A stretch of 33,427 nt of DNA from Thermoplasmatota archaeon. Lineage in GTDB: Archaea; Thermoplasmatota; E2; DHVEG-1. The notes beneath the pieces were generated by a model, which saw only the letters and a program-made list of their open reading frames with translations, was not told where the DNA came from and did not search any database. The stretch is taken from positions 1-33,427 of the forward strand of contig JARVGL010000010.1 in NCBI GenBank assembly GCA_029762575.1, written 5' to 3'. Shown here one piece after another: positions 26,242 to 32,992 of the stretch. Position 1 is the first letter of the stretch, and every line of letters begins with the position of its first letter. The position numbers and the translations under genes are program-made.

Positions 26242-26802
26242 CTAATAGCGATATCCTTGACTTTCTATCTCATCAACTTCAACACCAAGACCCAATGCTA
26301 TCCTATTGACGAAATTAAAATAACTACTGATCAGCACCACCTCTAGTATATCTTTATCCTTAAAACCATTCTTTTTTAACCGATCTACATCTTCATAGTT
26401 AACATTTTTTGGGTACTTGGTCAGTTTAACTGCAAATTCAACTAACGCTTTCTGGGGGTCACTGAGAAGATCTGATGCTTCTTTTTTCAATAACACATCC
26501 TCAATCTTTTTCTCATCCTTCCAATAAAAACGTAATGCATCTGTATGATGTCGTATACAATATTCGCAGTGATTGATAGATGATACAATGACTGCAATGA
26601 GTTCTTTATCTTCACGTTTCAGATCAGATTTATTGAACATTAATGAAAGATAGAGATCTAAATGGTTTTTCATAGCGGTTGGATGAAGGCTGTGAACTTT
26701 GAGGATATTGGAAATGTTACCTCTTTTCTGCACCAGCGTTTGGTATATCTCTTTTAGTTCATCTTTTGCATCTTGCTCATCGATAATAGAGATATATGTC
26801 AT
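26242..26802 (-). CDS. AhpD/CMD-like peroxidase-related protein
   Basis: A carboxymuconolactone-decarboxylase-fold protein. Counting from ATG 26802, the redox motif is INHCEYCIRHH (C79, C82, H86), preceded by REDKELIAVIVS. This is the AhpD-like CxxC...H active site seen in peroxidase-related enzymes (about 180 aa). AhpD proteins reduce a partner peroxidase or act as alkylhydroperoxidases. The start may also be ATG 26823 (2 nt after the upstream stop), but MTYISIIDEQDA is the usual family N-terminus and has GTGAG just upstream. It is the second gene of a pair with the zinc-ribbon/HPPD-like gene and probably cotranscribed, so the two may handle the same oxidised or aromatic compound. That link is inference. 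Confidence 0.83.
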   Translation of the reverse strand: MTYISIIDEQDAKDELKEIYQTLVQKRGNISNILKVHSLHPTAMKNHLDLYLSLMFNKSDLKREDKELIAVIVSSINHCEYCIRHHTDALRFYWKDEKKIEDVLLKKEASDLLSDPQKALVEFAVKLTKYPKNVNYEDVDRLKKNGFKDKDILEVVLISSYFNFVNRIALGLGVEVDEIESQGYRY

Positions 26803-26825
26803 CTGTCTCACTAACTCTAACATTC

Positions 26826-28004
26826 TTATTGTTTTTCTGTTGATTCTGTAAGTAGTGTCACATTGCTTTTCGTGAAAAAACCATCGAAATCACCATATCG
26901 ATGGATATACTCATTTACTAGAAGAGTATTATCTGAAGGAACGGTAAATGTTTGTTTCAAACCCTCCTCAGGTGAGCCAACAAGATCAATGAGAAAACCC
27001 GTTCCCCTTTGTTTTAACAAGCTAAAAGTATCTTCAATATGGTCTGTTTGAAAGGCAAGATGATGGGTGCGAGGACCATAGTTATAGATAAATTTCTCTG
27101 TTGGTCCAGATTCCTGCAAAGAGATAAATGGTGTCACACCTGAAGTGAACACCATCGCAAAATCCTTATCTGATAATCGGGCAACGTTTGTAATAGAATT
27201 GAACATTTTCACATAGATGGCAAAATCAAAAGTATAGTTTGTTAGCTCCATGAATTCAATTATTGCTTGGTCCCTATGTTCTGCTTTGACTCTTGTTGCT
27301 GCGTGATCTATATAATTAATGTTCTTTTTGAATGGTTCTATAGGTTGCTTTAAGACATCATGAAATCTATTTGCTTTATCCGACATATAGGTTCTTTGTC
27401 TTGTATGCCATTGAATAAAACCAATGGAATTACCCGTATACATTGATGGTTGAGTTTGAATAAAGGAAAAACCATCGTTATGTTCAATTTCTTGTGAAAG
27501 GAATGATACTCCTCGATTCCTTTGGATATCCACATATTTACCTATGTCGTTTGTCTCATAGACATAGGTCTCAAGTCGAGTATTTGGTAGATGCATTGAT
27601 TTAGGATGCTGATTGAATACGGCAAATGGGTTTTTCTCTTTAGGATCTATTCTTTGTTGTATCAGGATATCTGCTGAATCCTTTTGGCCTAGAACACAGA
27701 CCTTCTTGTCTTGTGTTTGAAACGATTCCTTGTAAGAGACCCCGGTGTTTTGTAGTAATTCTTGTATCGCATTTGTCCAATGACGCGTTTCCGTATTGAT
27801 GACAACACATTGTAACCCACCAACAAGTCCTTGCAGACCAACGATCTTTCGATCTTGTAAGATCCTATGAGCCTCTTTACGAAGATACGTATCACTATTA
27901 CTAAAATCATAAAGATGTTTCTTATGTGCATGACAATTAGGGCAATTCAAACCTCCTTCATTATCATGAACACTCATACATTTTGAACAAATCACTTTAG
28001 TCAT
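26826..28004 (-). CDS. Zinc-ribbon protein fused to HPPD-like (VOC) dioxygenase
   Basis: A 392-aa protein with two parts. Residues 1-30 form a zinc ribbon (CSKC at 6-9, CPNC at 21-24). Residues about 60-390 are two vicinal-oxygen-chelate modules arranged as in 4-hydroxyphenylpyruvate dioxygenase. The three iron ligands of that enzyme appear conserved: H233 in YIDHAATRV, H315 in THHLAFQTDH, and E365 in LLVNEYIHRYG, with LKQTFTVPSDN before the last one. HPPD converts 4-hydroxyphenylpyruvate to homogentisate using O2. The fused zinc ribbon is not a feature of classical HPPD, and substrate-binding residues cannot be checked by eye, so substrate and O2 use are open. The track start is TTG 28031; ATG 28004, after AAGGT, is preferred. 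It is upstream of the AhpD-like gene. Confidence 0.78.
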   Translation of the reverse strand: MTKVICSKCMSVHDNEGGLNCPNCHAHKKHLYDFSNSDTYLRKEAHRILQDRKIVGLQGLVGGLQCVVINTETRHWTNAIQELLQNTGVSYKESFQTQDKKVCVLGQKDSADILIQQRIDPKEKNPFAVFNQHPKSMHLPNTRLETYVYETNDIGKYVDIQRNRGVSFLSQEIEHNDGFSFIQTQPSMYTGNSIGFIQWHTRQRTYMSDKANRFHDVLKQPIEPFKKNINYIDHAATRVKAEHRDQAIIEFMELTNYTFDFAIYVKMFNSITNVARLSDKDFAMVFTSGVTPFISLQESGPTEKFIYNYGPRTHHLAFQTDHIEDTFSLLKQRGTGFLIDLVGSPEEGLKQTFTVPSDNTLLVNEYIHRYGDFDGFFTKSNVTLLTESTEKQ

Positions 28005-28234
28005 ACCTTGACCTTTAACCTTACTAAACAAGGATCGATACTAAATTCTTTCTCTTTCAGTATATCACTGATTATCTTTGCTCTTTTCTTTTTAGATATA
28101 CTATCCGTTTCACAGAGTTCATTATATTTTTAGAGTGTTCTATCTATTTGGAATAATTGTTCAAATGGTTTAATGGTGTAAAAAGAATTAAATACACGAC
28201 ATTTTTATATTATCTTATTGATAGGAGAATCGAT

Positions 28235-29800
28235 ATGAAAATTAATGTCCTAAGCGTTTTGATAATACTCATGTTTTTTCCAACGATTATACATGCATCT
28301 ACTTCAATTGATCATATAGAACATGGTCGAAGCGCTATTACTATGGTTGATGATCTTGATCCCCTTGTAGATCTTACAGTAACCTTTGAACTATTAAAGA
28401 TACGATCACTTGAAAAAAAAGATAATCACCTTAACGTAAGAGAATATATCGATAAATATAGTTATCCAGATTTTTATGTAAAGGTTTGGATCAACGATGA
28501 AATGTTTAAAAGCCCCATTTGGAGAAATACTCGTTACGTTTATGATCCTGATTGGAAGGTGACCTCTAATGTTCCCGATGATGAGGAATGGGTTAACATT
28601 ACAATCCAATTATGGGATTGGAATCTAGGCAGAGATCAAAAATGTGATATTAGTGGATATCAACAAGGGGGAAAGGATAGTTATGATGTCGAGATCAAGT
28701 ACAGTCTTAAAACAGGTCATTGGATGGGAGATGATTACGCCGAACAATATTTCCTAAACGCTGATCCCAGCGGCTACGGGCGATTGAACGGATGCGATGA
28801 TGGCAGCATCTATCAACATGATTTCGATGCGGAACTCTGGTTTGATATCTATCAAAATGATTTTGATGGAGATGGTATCCCGTATTGGACAGAAGTAAAC
28901 GTTTTTGGTACAGATCCCACGATTGACGATCGAGGAAGGGATGATGATGGCGATGGGGTTCCTATCGAATGGGAATGGAAATGGGGTCATTCGTTTAGCT
29001 GGGATTATCAAATATTTGACTATCAACATATTTGGCGTTATGATCCTTTTATATGGGAGGATCATAAGAACCTTGACCCGGACAATGACGGGCTCTCTAA
29101 TTATGAAGAGTATCTCACGTGGCAATGGGGCTCAGATCCCTTTAGAAAGGATTTATTTGTAGAAATGGACCAGATGGCACCTGGGCCAAATGGTGAAACA
29201 ACAGATTTCCCTGAGGAATCAAAAGAACTACTTCGCACAGCCTACGGCCGGCAGAATATCGTTTTTCATCTTGATGATGGATGTATGGGTGGAGGTGAAC
29301 GTATCCCGTTTGATGATTCTGCTACAGATGATGAGATAAGAAACATATACTGGAATTATTTTTTACATCAAGATGAGGATAATTGGAGATGCGGAGTATT
29401 TCATTATGGATTAGTAATCTATAACGCTGAAAGATATCCTGGGTTTGGGTTCTGGGGTGGAGTAAAACCAGTAATTGATTCCTATCAGATATCCGCCCTT
29501 GGTATGGAGAAAAAAGCGAGATATCCCTATTTAACAAGAGATATCGTCTATGCAAGTGCGTATATGCATGAATGTGGTCATACCCTTGGTATTTTCCATG
29601 GAAATACTCCAGGTTGTGATGATCAAGAGGGCAAATATCCATGGCAGTTGAACTATTGGAGATGGCGACCATATAAAAGCGTGATGAACTATGGATATAT
29701 GTACCAAATGGTGGATTACTCAGATGGAAGCCGTGGAAAAAATGATTTTAATGACTGGAATCGAATCGATCTAACCTTCTTTAAAACCCCTCTCTGGTGA
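28235..29800 (+). CDS. Secreted metzincin-type zinc metallopeptidase with calcium-binding repeats
   Basis: A predicted exported metallopeptidase of 521 aa. From ATG 28235 (GGAG 8 nt upstream) a signal peptide runs MKINVLSVLIILMFFPTIIHA. The N-terminal domain is beta-rich (about 40-195, DPLVDLTVTFELLKI). Residues about 205-305 carry thrombospondin type-3-like Asp-rich repeats (NDFDGDGIPYWTEVN, DDDGDGVPIEWEWKW, LDPDNDGLSNYEEY) that should bind calcium. The zinc motif HECGHTLGIFH (H445, E446, H449, H455) is a full metzincin HExxHxxGxxH, followed by a Met-turn-like SVMNYGYM. Two more cysteines (GCDD, CGVF) may form disulfides. The track start (28157) adds 26 residues before the signal peptide and is unlikely. 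It is a third, unrelated class of exocellular peptidase in the window. Confidence 0.87.
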   Translation: MKINVLSVLIILMFFPTIIHASTSIDHIEHGRSAITMVDDLDPLVDLTVTFELLKIRSLEKKDNHLNVREYIDKYSYPDFYVKVWINDEMFKSPIWRNTRYVYDPDWKVTSNVPDDEEWVNITIQLWDWNLGRDQKCDISGYQQGGKDSYDVEIKYSLKTGHWMGDDYAEQYFLNADPSGYGRLNGCDDGSIYQHDFDAELWFDIYQNDFDGDGIPYWTEVNVFGTDPTIDDRGRDDDGDGVPIEWEWKWGHSFSWDYQIFDYQHIWRYDPFIWEDHKNLDPDNDGLSNYEEYLTWQWGSDPFRKDLFVEMDQMAPGPNGETTDFPEESKELLRTAYGRQNIVFHLDDGCMGGGERIPFDDSATDDEIRNIYWNYFLHQDEDNWRCGVFHYGLVIYNAERYPGFGFWGGVKPVIDSYQISALGMEKKARYPYLTRDIVYASAYMHECGHTLGIFHGNTPGCDDQEGKYPWQLNYWRWRPYKSVMNYGYMYQMVDYSDGSRGKNDFNDWNRIDLTFFKTPLW

Positions 29801-29856: not shown

Positions 29857-31095
29857 CTAATAGATCCCTTTTAGATAATCAAAGCGGTCCTCAAATATCT
29901 CTGCCTGATGTTGAATGACTTTTTCTGCTTCATTGATATCCATGGTTTCAACTTGCTCAGCATACGATACAAAACGCCCTATCCATAACGTCTTAAGAGT
30001 ATCGAGGAGCAACTGTTTGTCTTCCTCTGTTGTAATGTTCTTGTACGCCGATGAATACTGATACACAATATCTGCCCATATCTCTGCATCAAAATTGATA
30101 TTATTTTTGATTATCTGATCGATTTTTTCGATAAAATGATCTGTGATATATCTATGAAATAGATGTTTGTGAGCTTGAAAATCATGTTGAAATGATTCTT
30201 TCATATCTTTGATATTTATACTCACCGGAATCGGGTTTTTACTAAAGCATTCTCGATAATAGGAGCTTTTCCATCTATTTGGTTTCTTCCGCCAGTACGA
30301 TTCATAATATTTTGCAAGGGCAAACATCGACCCGGTCACTTTTCGAAACATAGGTATCAAGAATTTTTCAGGTTCCAGATACCGGGTAGTAGATTCATGG
30401 ATCTTTAAAGAGAACAATCCTTCTTTGACATACATACCTTGTGCGGCAGCAGTTGTAACAATAAATATGTCAACACCAAAATCTGGAGGAAACAAGGGAT
30501 GATTTCGTAAATGTTCATAAAGATTCTTCGAAAGAGCAAATTCTCCAGCTATTGGTTGACGAATATCTATACCATATAATGCCCGGGTGAATGGATATAC
30601 AAGATTATTGGTGATGACCCCATCATTTTTATCACGTATATAGTACGGAACTGTGAGATCTGCCCGCCCGTAGACAACGGGATTAGCTATCGATTGGATC
30701 CAGGAAGGTTTTATATTGAGAAGATCCCCGTCGAGAAGGACCACGCATTTTGCTTTGATCTCATGGGCTATCTCTAGAATTGTCATAATCCCAGCACCTT
30801 TTCCACCAATGGTGAGATCATCTGTAACGATCATCTCGATTGAATGATATGGTTGGAATAATCGAATTGCTTCATCGGTCCTATCACTGGATTTTGCCTT
30901 TGATACAGCTATAGCCATACGATAATCTGGAAAGAATTCATATAATCCTTCGTTAACTACGTTAAGAACATTGAGAATGGTTGCCTCAACATCCTTACAG
31001 AGAACCCCAACGAAGATATCAATTGGTTTTATCTGTTTACATCTTTCGATTAAACTCTCATCTAACGTGATATGTTTGTTCCAATCTTGATTCAT
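29857..31095 (-). CDS. GT-A glycosyltransferase, glycosylglycerate-synthase-like
   Basis: A cytoplasmic inverting- or retaining-type GT-A enzyme of 412 aa. IDIFVGVLCKDVEATI begins the nucleotide-binding fold. Metal binding is by DGD at 122-124 (VVLLDGDLLNIKPSW). GGKGAGI near residue 98 resembles the GKG loop of the neighbouring GpgS. FGVDIFIVTTAAAQGMYVKEGLFSLKIHES is similar to the acceptor-site region of mannosylglycerate/GT81-type synthases. A C-terminal helical part of about 130 residues is not recognised. It starts 15 nt after the gpgS stop with an AGAGGATGAG ribosome-binding site, so it is the third gene of the operon. The likely role is adding a second sugar to a glucosylglycerate (phosphate) core, or an alternative glycosylglycerate synthase; sugar identity is not determinable. 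Confidence 0.78.
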   Translation of the reverse strand: MNQDWNKHITLDESLIERCKQIKPIDIFVGVLCKDVEATILNVLNVVNEGLYEFFPDYRMAIAVSKAKSSDRTDEAIRLFQPYHSIEMIVTDDLTIGGKGAGIMTILEIAHEIKAKCVVLLDGDLLNIKPSWIQSIANPVVYGRADLTVPYYIRDKNDGVITNNLVYPFTRALYGIDIRQPIAGEFALSKNLYEHLRNHPLFPPDFGVDIFIVTTAAAQGMYVKEGLFSLKIHESTTRYLEPEKFLIPMFRKVTGSMFALAKYYESYWRKKPNRWKSSYYRECFSKNPIPVSINIKDMKESFQHDFQAHKHLFHRYITDHFIEKIDQIIKNNINFDAEIWADIVYQYSSAYKNITTEEDKQLLLDTLKTLWIGRFVSYAEQVETMDINEAEKVIQHQAEIFEDRFDYLKGIY

Positions 31096-31110
31096 ATCTC
31101 ATCCTCTCTA

Positions 31111-32310
31111 TTATTCGTTATCAACAATTACAACATCGAGGAGTTGTTCCCGTATCTTCTTTCGTGCAGATATTGTTCTCAACCAGTCAGGTATTCGTGA
31201 CCCAACAGGATGTTGGAGATAATGTTCTCCAGATACCATTATTTGTTTACTGAATCTCTCAACCATATGTTCCTCGATATGTCTATCATATCTTAGGTTG
31301 TTAAAATGCGCATCTGCATGATATTTTCGTATCGCATCTTGTGCATATCGTTGATAGAGCACACGGAGACTTCGGATATAATCTTGGGATATTGTGATAT
31401 TATCCTCCTCGATTAATGCTCTTAGAAGTGTTTCTAATATATCTCCCACCATTTTCATAAGGCCTTGTTCCTCTGTACCTATCTTCTGATGTTTATGATC
31501 ATAGAATCCAAGATCCGTTTGACATATTCTCTTTGTAATCACATTCCTATACATCTCAGCCATGATGCCTATCTCAAGACCCCAATTACCAGGAATATCA
31601 ACATCTCTTGCTAGATCACTTGTTAAAGCAAACTCGCCTGAAAGGGGATATCTAAATGAATGAAGAAATTGAACGAATTTCAAAGGTCTTGTATGTTTTT
31701 CTAAAAATGCTTCGAGCAATGGTTGAAGAAACAAACGTACCACACGACCATACATGATACCTTTTTCTGTGTTGACCCTTGCATAATATCCTTTATTGAA
31801 CTTAAAATCAAGTTCAGGTTCAACAAGGGGATAGAACAGTTTTGTAGGTATCGTTTCATCATACAGCATAATGTCTGCATCATGTAACCCAACAGCATAT
31901 GATTTAAGTGATGCGATACCTAATGCAAGCCAGACATCACGACCTTTCCCCTGATATTTCAATAGGTCAATCCCATCTGATTTCAACTCTTCCAAAAGCT
32001 TTTCGATTTTCGGCCCGTTACACCACATGATTAAATGAGGGATTTTTAGATCTGTGAAAAATTTTTTTACATGATTAAATTCCCGTTCATTTTGGGCAGC
32101 AAGGGGAATGATTATCTCATGTAGATACGTACATTTATTTAGTTCTTTCTTGATTACTCCAAGAGCATCCCCTGTTATCTCTCTATATAACATTGGCATG
32201 ACTATAGAGACAGGGCGATCAACTGCTCCCTCTATCACGGTGTTTGCTATTGATTTGTAATCTGCGTTGAAATCATGTAATGTAGTTATTTTTTCTTGTT
32301 TAATATCCAT
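31111..32310 (-). CDS. gpgS: Glucosyl-3-phosphoglycerate synthase (GT81)
   Basis: Makes glucosyl-3-phosphoglycerate from an NDP-glucose and 3-phosphoglycerate, the first committed step of glucosylglycerate synthesis. The 399-aa protein shows VSIVMPMLYRE (nucleotide fold), GKGRDVWLALGIA at 121-133, the metal-binding DAD at 144-146 (VGLHDADIMLY), and YPLSGEFALTSDLARDV followed by GNWGLEIGIMAEMYRN. FYDHKHQKIG and GLMKMVGDI complete the GT81 pattern. The track ORF begins at 32352, inside the previous gene. ATG 32310 has a strong GGAGG ribosome-binding site 9 nt upstream and overlaps the HAD stop by 11 nt, so the two are translationally coupled. The third gene follows 15 nt after the stop. Confidence 0.87.
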   Translation of the reverse strand: MDIKQEKITTLHDFNADYKSIANTVIEGAVDRPVSIVMPMLYREITGDALGVIKKELNKCTYLHEIIIPLAAQNEREFNHVKKFFTDLKIPHLIMWCNGPKIEKLLEELKSDGIDLLKYQGKGRDVWLALGIASLKSYAVGLHDADIMLYDETIPTKLFYPLVEPELDFKFNKGYYARVNTEKGIMYGRVVRLFLQPLLEAFLEKHTRPLKFVQFLHSFRYPLSGEFALTSDLARDVDIPGNWGLEIGIMAEMYRNVITKRICQTDLGFYDHKHQKIGTEEQGLMKMVGDILETLLRALIEEDNITISQDYIRSLRVLYQRYAQDAIRKYHADAHFNNLRYDRHIEEHMVERFSKQIMVSGEHYLQHPVGSRIPDWLRTISARKKIREQLLDVVIVDNE

Positions 32311-32959
32311 GTTCTTTTTCCTCCAGATGTGTGATGATCGTTCGAAGATCATCTATTGAAACATCAGCATATTTCTTCACTTCTTCAGGTGCATGAATTG
32401 CAAATCCAAGACCTGCTTTCTGTAACATACCACAATCAACAAGGCCATCACCAACAGCGATGATATCCTCAAATGAAACAGCATACTTTTCTGCTAAAAC
32501 ATCTACAATACAACTCTTAGAGATAGAGTATATCTTATGGGTGACCTCATCTATGACCTTTCCCTTATTATGTATCAAGAGATCACCAGTAACAATTCCC
32601 TCATGTATCACGAGTGTATTTGCATACACATGATCAACGTTAAGTTTTTTTTGCAGATCTTGAGCAATAATATCGTAGCTATCTGTTGCAATCGCTATAA
32701 TCATATCTCTTTTTCTTAATTCAGAGAGGACCTCTATAACATGTTGACGAAGAGGTAATTCCCGAAAAAGGTTTAGTAATTCATTTTTACTGGACCCCTT
32801 TAATAATCGAGCGATTTTCAACGATTTTTGATACGGTTGATCATTAGTATTAAGGATGTCATGCAATTGTCTCTGAAACCCTTTTTTTTCTGCAAAATGA
32901 AAAATCGTTCTACCATCAAGCAATGTTCCATCCATATCAAAAAGAGCGATACGATACAT
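32300..32959 (-). CDS. HAD phosphatase (SerB-like), likely glycosyl-3-phosphoglycerate phosphatase
   Basis: A HAD-superfamily phosphatase of 219 aa similar to phosphoserine phosphatase. Motif I is LFDMDGTLLDG, motif II lies in IAIATDSYD, the Lys motif in HNKGKVIDEV, and motif IV reads IIAVGDGLVDCGML. The cap is a small helical insertion after motif I. It is the first gene of an operon with gpgS and a second glycosyltransferase, which suggests it removes the phosphate from glucosyl-3-phosphoglycerate to give glucosylglycerate (GpgP function). Sequence alone would equally allow SerB activity. ATG 32959 has AGAGGATA just upstream; the track start at 32992 adds 11 residues before the family N-terminus. 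Confidence 0.85.
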   Translation of the reverse strand: MYRIALFDMDGTLLDGRTIFHFAEKKGFQRQLHDILNTNDQPYQKSLKIARLLKGSSKNELLNLFRELPLRQHVIEVLSELRKRDMIIAIATDSYDIIAQDLQKKLNVDHVYANTLVIHEGIVTGDLLIHNKGKVIDEVTHKIYSISKSCIVDVLAEKYAVSFEDIIAVGDGLVDCGMLQKAGLGFAIHAPEEVKKYADVSIDDLRTIITHLEEKEHGY

Positions 32960-32992
32960 TATCCTCTCAAACAAGGTAAAGGGGCTCTTCAT

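Follow-up and report, generated by a model that had tools for sequence, protein, structure and literature searches.

An HPPD-like two-module VOC subfamily found across archaeal and bacterial phyla, with a retained metal-ligand triad and a changed substrate pocket

Several described systems resemble parts of the locus analyzed here. HPPD (TIGR01263) and hydroxymandelate synthase (HMS) share with its central protein a two-module VOC fold, an HHE triad, a C-terminal GF..N motif and a metal-side Gln and Phe. The 2-oxoadipate dioxygenase/decarboxylase HglS and Escherichia coli YdcJ (DUF1338, PF07063), whose activity is reported as identical to that of HglS (PMC7286885), share its HHE triad and have, like it, an Arg at the fourth position past the first His (H+4), but differ in domain layout. 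VOC enzymes of the methylmalonyl-CoA epimerase and glyoxalase I type have four protein ligands. A fourth point of comparison is genomic rather than structural: the Anbu operon, described with four genes (ATP-grasp, Alpha-E, transglutaminase and Anbu) and with no mention of a dioxygenase or glyoxalase, has a role that is still unsolved (PMC5666114, PMC6376114). We find that the window, a 33,427-nucleotide stretch of a Thermoplasmatota archaeon, encodes a member of a cross-phylum VOC subfamily that is undescribed in the libraries and literature searched for an HPPD-like family of anaerobes. It belongs with enzymes of the HPPD/HMS/HglS kind and is not a new kind of system.

Architecture and fold of the VOC protein

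The gene (26826..28004, minus strand) starts with an ATG at 28004 and encodes a protein of 392 aa, which profile searches, an AlphaFold2 model, a fold search and alignment identify as an HPPD-like two-module VOC protein with an optional N-terminal zinc ribbon. Its N-terminus, MTKVICSKC...CPNC, carries the ribbon knuckles CSKC (residues 6–9) and CPNC (residues 21–24) at 27933..27989 (minus strand). By secondary structure and profile alignment, module 1 covers approximately residues 61–199 (27408..27824, minus strand) and is without a metal site; module 2, approximately residues 229–369 (26898..27320, minus strand), is the predicted metal-binding module from the model and profile alignment.

A single-sequence search of the PDB found no close chain, the Pfam matches of the protein were glyoxalase domains that all fell below threshold, and TIGR01263 scored 24.9 bits against an equivalog cut-off of 277. 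A profile built from the 46-member alignment placed HPPDs as its top matches (E 2e-6). The AlphaFold2 model (pLDDT 90, pTM 0.88) had HPPD and HMS as its top PDB folds over nearly the full length, with E down to 6e-20, a TM score of about 0.6–0.7 and 13–17% identity. The first-pass annotation had described a CxxC..CxxC ribbon on a two-module VOC protein with H, H and E at the ligand positions, and had called for a structural model; both the ribbon and the triad (H234, H315 and E365) are present, and the model has the HPPD fold. PADLOC, PHROGs and a viral fold library returned no informative match, and we set aside a defense-system or phage origin on that basis.

Metal site, substrate pocket and the question of oxygen

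We scored conservation over 82 distinct sequences, using the ungapped rows of each column (one row is truncated), and compared the subfamily with four plasmid-borne HPPDs by profile alignment. Invariant residues are D233, H234, A236, R238, R244, P301, T302, E303, R312, H314, H315, Q351, F353, E365, Y366, R369, G375, F376, F377, N381 and V382, and conservation on this scale argues that the catalytic motifs are not a chance resemblance. H234 (27303..27305, minus strand) lies on strand b1, is conserved in 82/82 sequences and aligns with the HPPD DH motif; together with H315 of the H314-H315 pair (27060..27065, minus strand) and E365 (26910..26912, minus strand) it occupies the HPPD iron-ligand positions. 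The second sphere is also kept, because Q351 and F353 align with the Gln and Phe of HPPD LLQIFT and, like the equivalents R369 and N381, are retained in all ungapped rows. An insert of about 25 residues that precedes this LLQIF strand in HPPD, after the GMEFL strand, is absent from the subfamily.

The substrate side of the pocket differs from that of HPPD. The Gln of SQI, the Gln of VQH and the Phe of GNF, which we take to be the aromatic-substrate residues of HPPD, are each replaced by something invariant: H314 stands in place of the VQH Gln, V382 in place of the GNF Phe, and the P301/T302 region in place of the SQI Gln, with a loop register that is uncertain by one residue. The pocket comparison proposed at the first pass thus comes out, at the level of alignment, against an aromatic substrate. 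At the H+4 position, the four HPPDs have Asn, whereas all 82 subfamily sequences have Arg (R238; 27291..27293, minus strand), as do HglS and YdcJ. HglS uses this residue, Arg74, to hold 2-oxoadipate by its distal carboxylate, and the R74A substitution abolishes activity (PMC7286885). The local motifs are alike (HGAIRV in YdcJ and HAATRV here), but an hhalign comparison of the VOC profile with YdcJ was not significant and PF07063 did not match the VOC protein at E≤1. We therefore treat the correspondence of R238 with Arg74 as an analogy of motif spacing and strand geometry, not as homology, and claim no membership of the HglS family.

Could the protein nevertheless be a genuine HPPD or HMS acting on 4-hydroxyphenylpyruvate? 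Its fold and triad are the same, but we consider this very improbable given the TIGR01263 score, the replaced pocket residues and the genomic context, in which neither HmgA (homogentisate dioxygenase) nor an HPPD above the TIGR01263 cut-off was found in any of 30 carrier genomes (0/30 for each). A canonical HPPD is rejected on these grounds, and the aromatic-acid pathway raised by the first-pass annotation is disfavored by the same observations.

The reading that we favor, tentatively, is that the VOC protein is a metal-dependent, probably Fe(II)-dependent, 2-oxo-acid enzyme of the HPPD/HMS/HglS kind that acts on a carboxylate-bearing, non-aromatic substrate. H234, H315 and E365 of module 2 would hold a divalent metal, of which Fe(II) is the likeliest, and leave three coordination sites open. 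A 2-oxo acid, probably a non-aromatic dicarboxylic one or similar, could chelate this metal while its far carboxylate pairs with R238, much as 2-oxoadipate is held by Arg74 of HglS. With O2, the expected chemistry would be oxidative decarboxylation with intramolecular hydroxylation; in view of the hosts, this is the least secure step. The HPPD-fold model, the profile homology to HPPD, the triad with its second sphere, R238, the changed pocket and the lack of HmgA and HPPD in carriers all speak for this reading. Counting against it are the awkwardness of O2 use in most carriers, the YdcJ comparison, which leaves the arginine match short of homology, and the lack of an operon partner in anaerobes that would point to the substrate.

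Oxygen is where the favored reading meets its strongest competitor. Of 30 carriers, 4 have cytochrome bd subunit I (weakly matched in one of them), 3 have a haem-copper oxidase and 24 have neither. Many of these assemblies are drafts and single absences are weak evidence, but the overall picture is consistent. Hosts that mostly lack both main oxidase families argue against routine O2 use, and the identity of several carriers (Methanothrix, Methanoregula, Clostridium, Desulfovibrio and a Prometheoarchaeum) and the distant similarity to methylmalonyl-CoA epimerase fit an HPPD scaffold adapted in anaerobes to an O2-independent, metal-dependent VOC reaction on a carboxylate substrate, such as an isomerization, epimerization or lyase reaction. 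The metal site pulls the other way. Unlike epimerases and glyoxalase I, the protein has no ligand residue at the fourth-ligand position, on the strand of residues 283–288 (AMVFTS), and a three-ligand center of this sort favors an oxygenase-type reaction. Moreover, the same invariant residues recur in a Pseudomonadota sister clade in which at least two members have haem-copper oxidases. On balance we regard the O2-independent reaction as a serious possibility, somewhat less probable than the oxidative 2-oxo-acid enzyme. Among the options first put forward, that of a VOC enzyme with a new function is supported, and the host looks anaerobic.

Distribution, zinc ribbon and neighboring genes

The window assembly comprises 1.58 Mb in 161 contigs, and the nearest named relatives by the VOC gene are Thermoplasmatota MAGs. 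The gene is patchily distributed, occurring in 7/293 genomes of the host phylum, 16/50 of the Methanothrix family and 8/196 of the Clostridium family, and it is also carried by Planctomycetota, Desulfovibrionales, Elusimicrobiota, Zixibacteriota, Krumholzibacteriota, Ozemobacter, an Undinarchaeon and the Prometheoarchaeum; none of the plasmid records of the collection matched. Members cluster strongly by phylum in the tree, where a long, fully supported branch separates 42 core members from the Pseudomonadota sister clade. Some Methanothrix matches show apparent in-frame stops (that of L022 precedes the probable start codon).

The fusion of a zinc ribbon to the VOC modules, highlighted at first as distinctive, is real in the window protein but does not define the family. 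The four-ligand motif is present in 17/46 VOC homologs, and the others have apparent decayed remnants (for example, MERSICDDL and MRKHICPQL) or none. Parsimony places eight changes of the ribbon on the tree, at least four of them on well-supported branches, and we reject the ribbon as a defining part of the family. It is a dispensable appendage of the VOC protein, which would serve as a structural or docking add-on.

The fetched core-clade loci contain no conserved operon, and neighbors recur at the level of a lineage only, in Methanotrichales. There, TspO is frequently found downstream of the VOC gene (L005, L023, L041 and L042) or a small cupin upstream of it (L021, L022, L026 and L042), and an MBL-rhodanese gene is near and downstream in several loci. 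Mostly stand-alone genes without pathway context, together with an optional ribbon, would suit a non-catalytic sensor of metal, ligand or O2, or a scaffold; we think this improbable, because over 20 residues around the metal site are strictly invariant in bacterial and archaeal members alike, which argues for catalysis.

Immediately downstream in the window is the AhpD/CMD peroxidase-related gene (26242..26823, minus strand; 193 aa), on the same strand and 2 nt from the VOC gene. Relatives of its product start at the residue that corresponds to Met8 (position 26802), and with that start the two genes would be 23 nt apart. The protein is an ordinary TIGR01926 member with no notable difference from that family (147.3 bits against a cut-off of 81.8; the AhpD core domain also passed), and its CxxCxxxH redox motif reads CEYCIRHH (residues 86–93; 26545..26568, minus strand). 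An AhpD-like CxxC...H gene in the same direction was therefore correctly recognized at the first pass; the proposal that the two genes form a system for peroxide or O2 detoxification, or for an oxidized substrate, has fared poorly. Close spacing on one strand is in its favor, but a search of the flanks of all fetched VOC loci found the CMD protein in the window only, and a 75% identical VOC homolog in the same archaeal family (L002/L053) has a convergent, unrelated gene downstream. Among 60 relatives searched, 20 had a CMD match and six a VOC match (two of these marginal), and just one genome besides that of the window, G058, clearly had both genes, which lie on different contigs there. Homologs of the CMD protein at about 50% identity sit in mixed, unrelated gene contexts, and in relatives the gene stands alone. 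The pair is thus not conserved in related genomes; we reject a conserved VOC–AhpD pair, rate joint function as highly unlikely and read the adjacency as a local accident in which an independent, thiol peroxidase-related gene would have come to lie downstream by chance.

Other genes of the window merit brief mention. At 29857–32992 (minus strand), two glycosyltransferase-like genes, one weakly mannosylglycerate-synthase-like and one weakly glucosyl-3-phosphoglycerate-synthase-like, adjoin a HAD phosphatase gene in a possible compatible-solute cluster. The gene at 28157–29800 (plus strand) encodes a protein that is probably secreted; it shows a C2 domain at borderline score, a weak match to TSP3-like repeats and a zinc-metallopeptidase-like motif, HECGHTLGIFH.

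The Pseudomonadota sister clade and the Anbu operon

The sister clade, found in 29/369 genomes sampled of the class, has about 30% identity to the core VOC proteins, and its members often lie in or beside the Anbu operon. Of 23 Pseudomonadota loci, 13 adjoin an ATP-grasp, Alpha-E, transglutaminase or Anbu-like proteasome gene (among them L115, L116, L118, L045, L050 and L051), and one genome (G407) has two VOC copies, each next to a separate cluster of this kind (L116 and L117). Pfam confirmed the ATP-grasp, Alpha-E and transglutaminase neighbors; the proteasome-like neighbor looks like Anbu, a reading of its sequence because Pfam gave no match. Alpha-E is present in 20/20 sister-clade carriers tested and in 5/19 non-carriers (Fisher p about 8e-7, uncorrected for relatedness), whereas it was found in 0/28 core-clade carriers, the window genome included. 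A link between a VOC protein, dioxygenase or glyoxalase and Anbu was not found in the literature searched, a scope that does not establish priority.

A broader and more speculative picture, which we hold to be unlikely, is that the HPPD scaffold, with HHE intact, was recruited in strict anaerobes from many phyla for an O2-independent reaction of a dicarboxylic 2-oxo acid, and that the aerobic sister clade represents an unrecognized fifth enzyme of the Anbu operon.

For the family as a whole, a dioxygenase-type center that is invariant in methanogens, clostridia and further anaerobes would mean either that a specific O2 reaction takes place in these organisms or that the scaffold has been turned to non-O2 chemistry. 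For the Anbu operon, the sister clade may provide a new chemical clue in the form of a 2-oxo-acid-type metalloenzyme.
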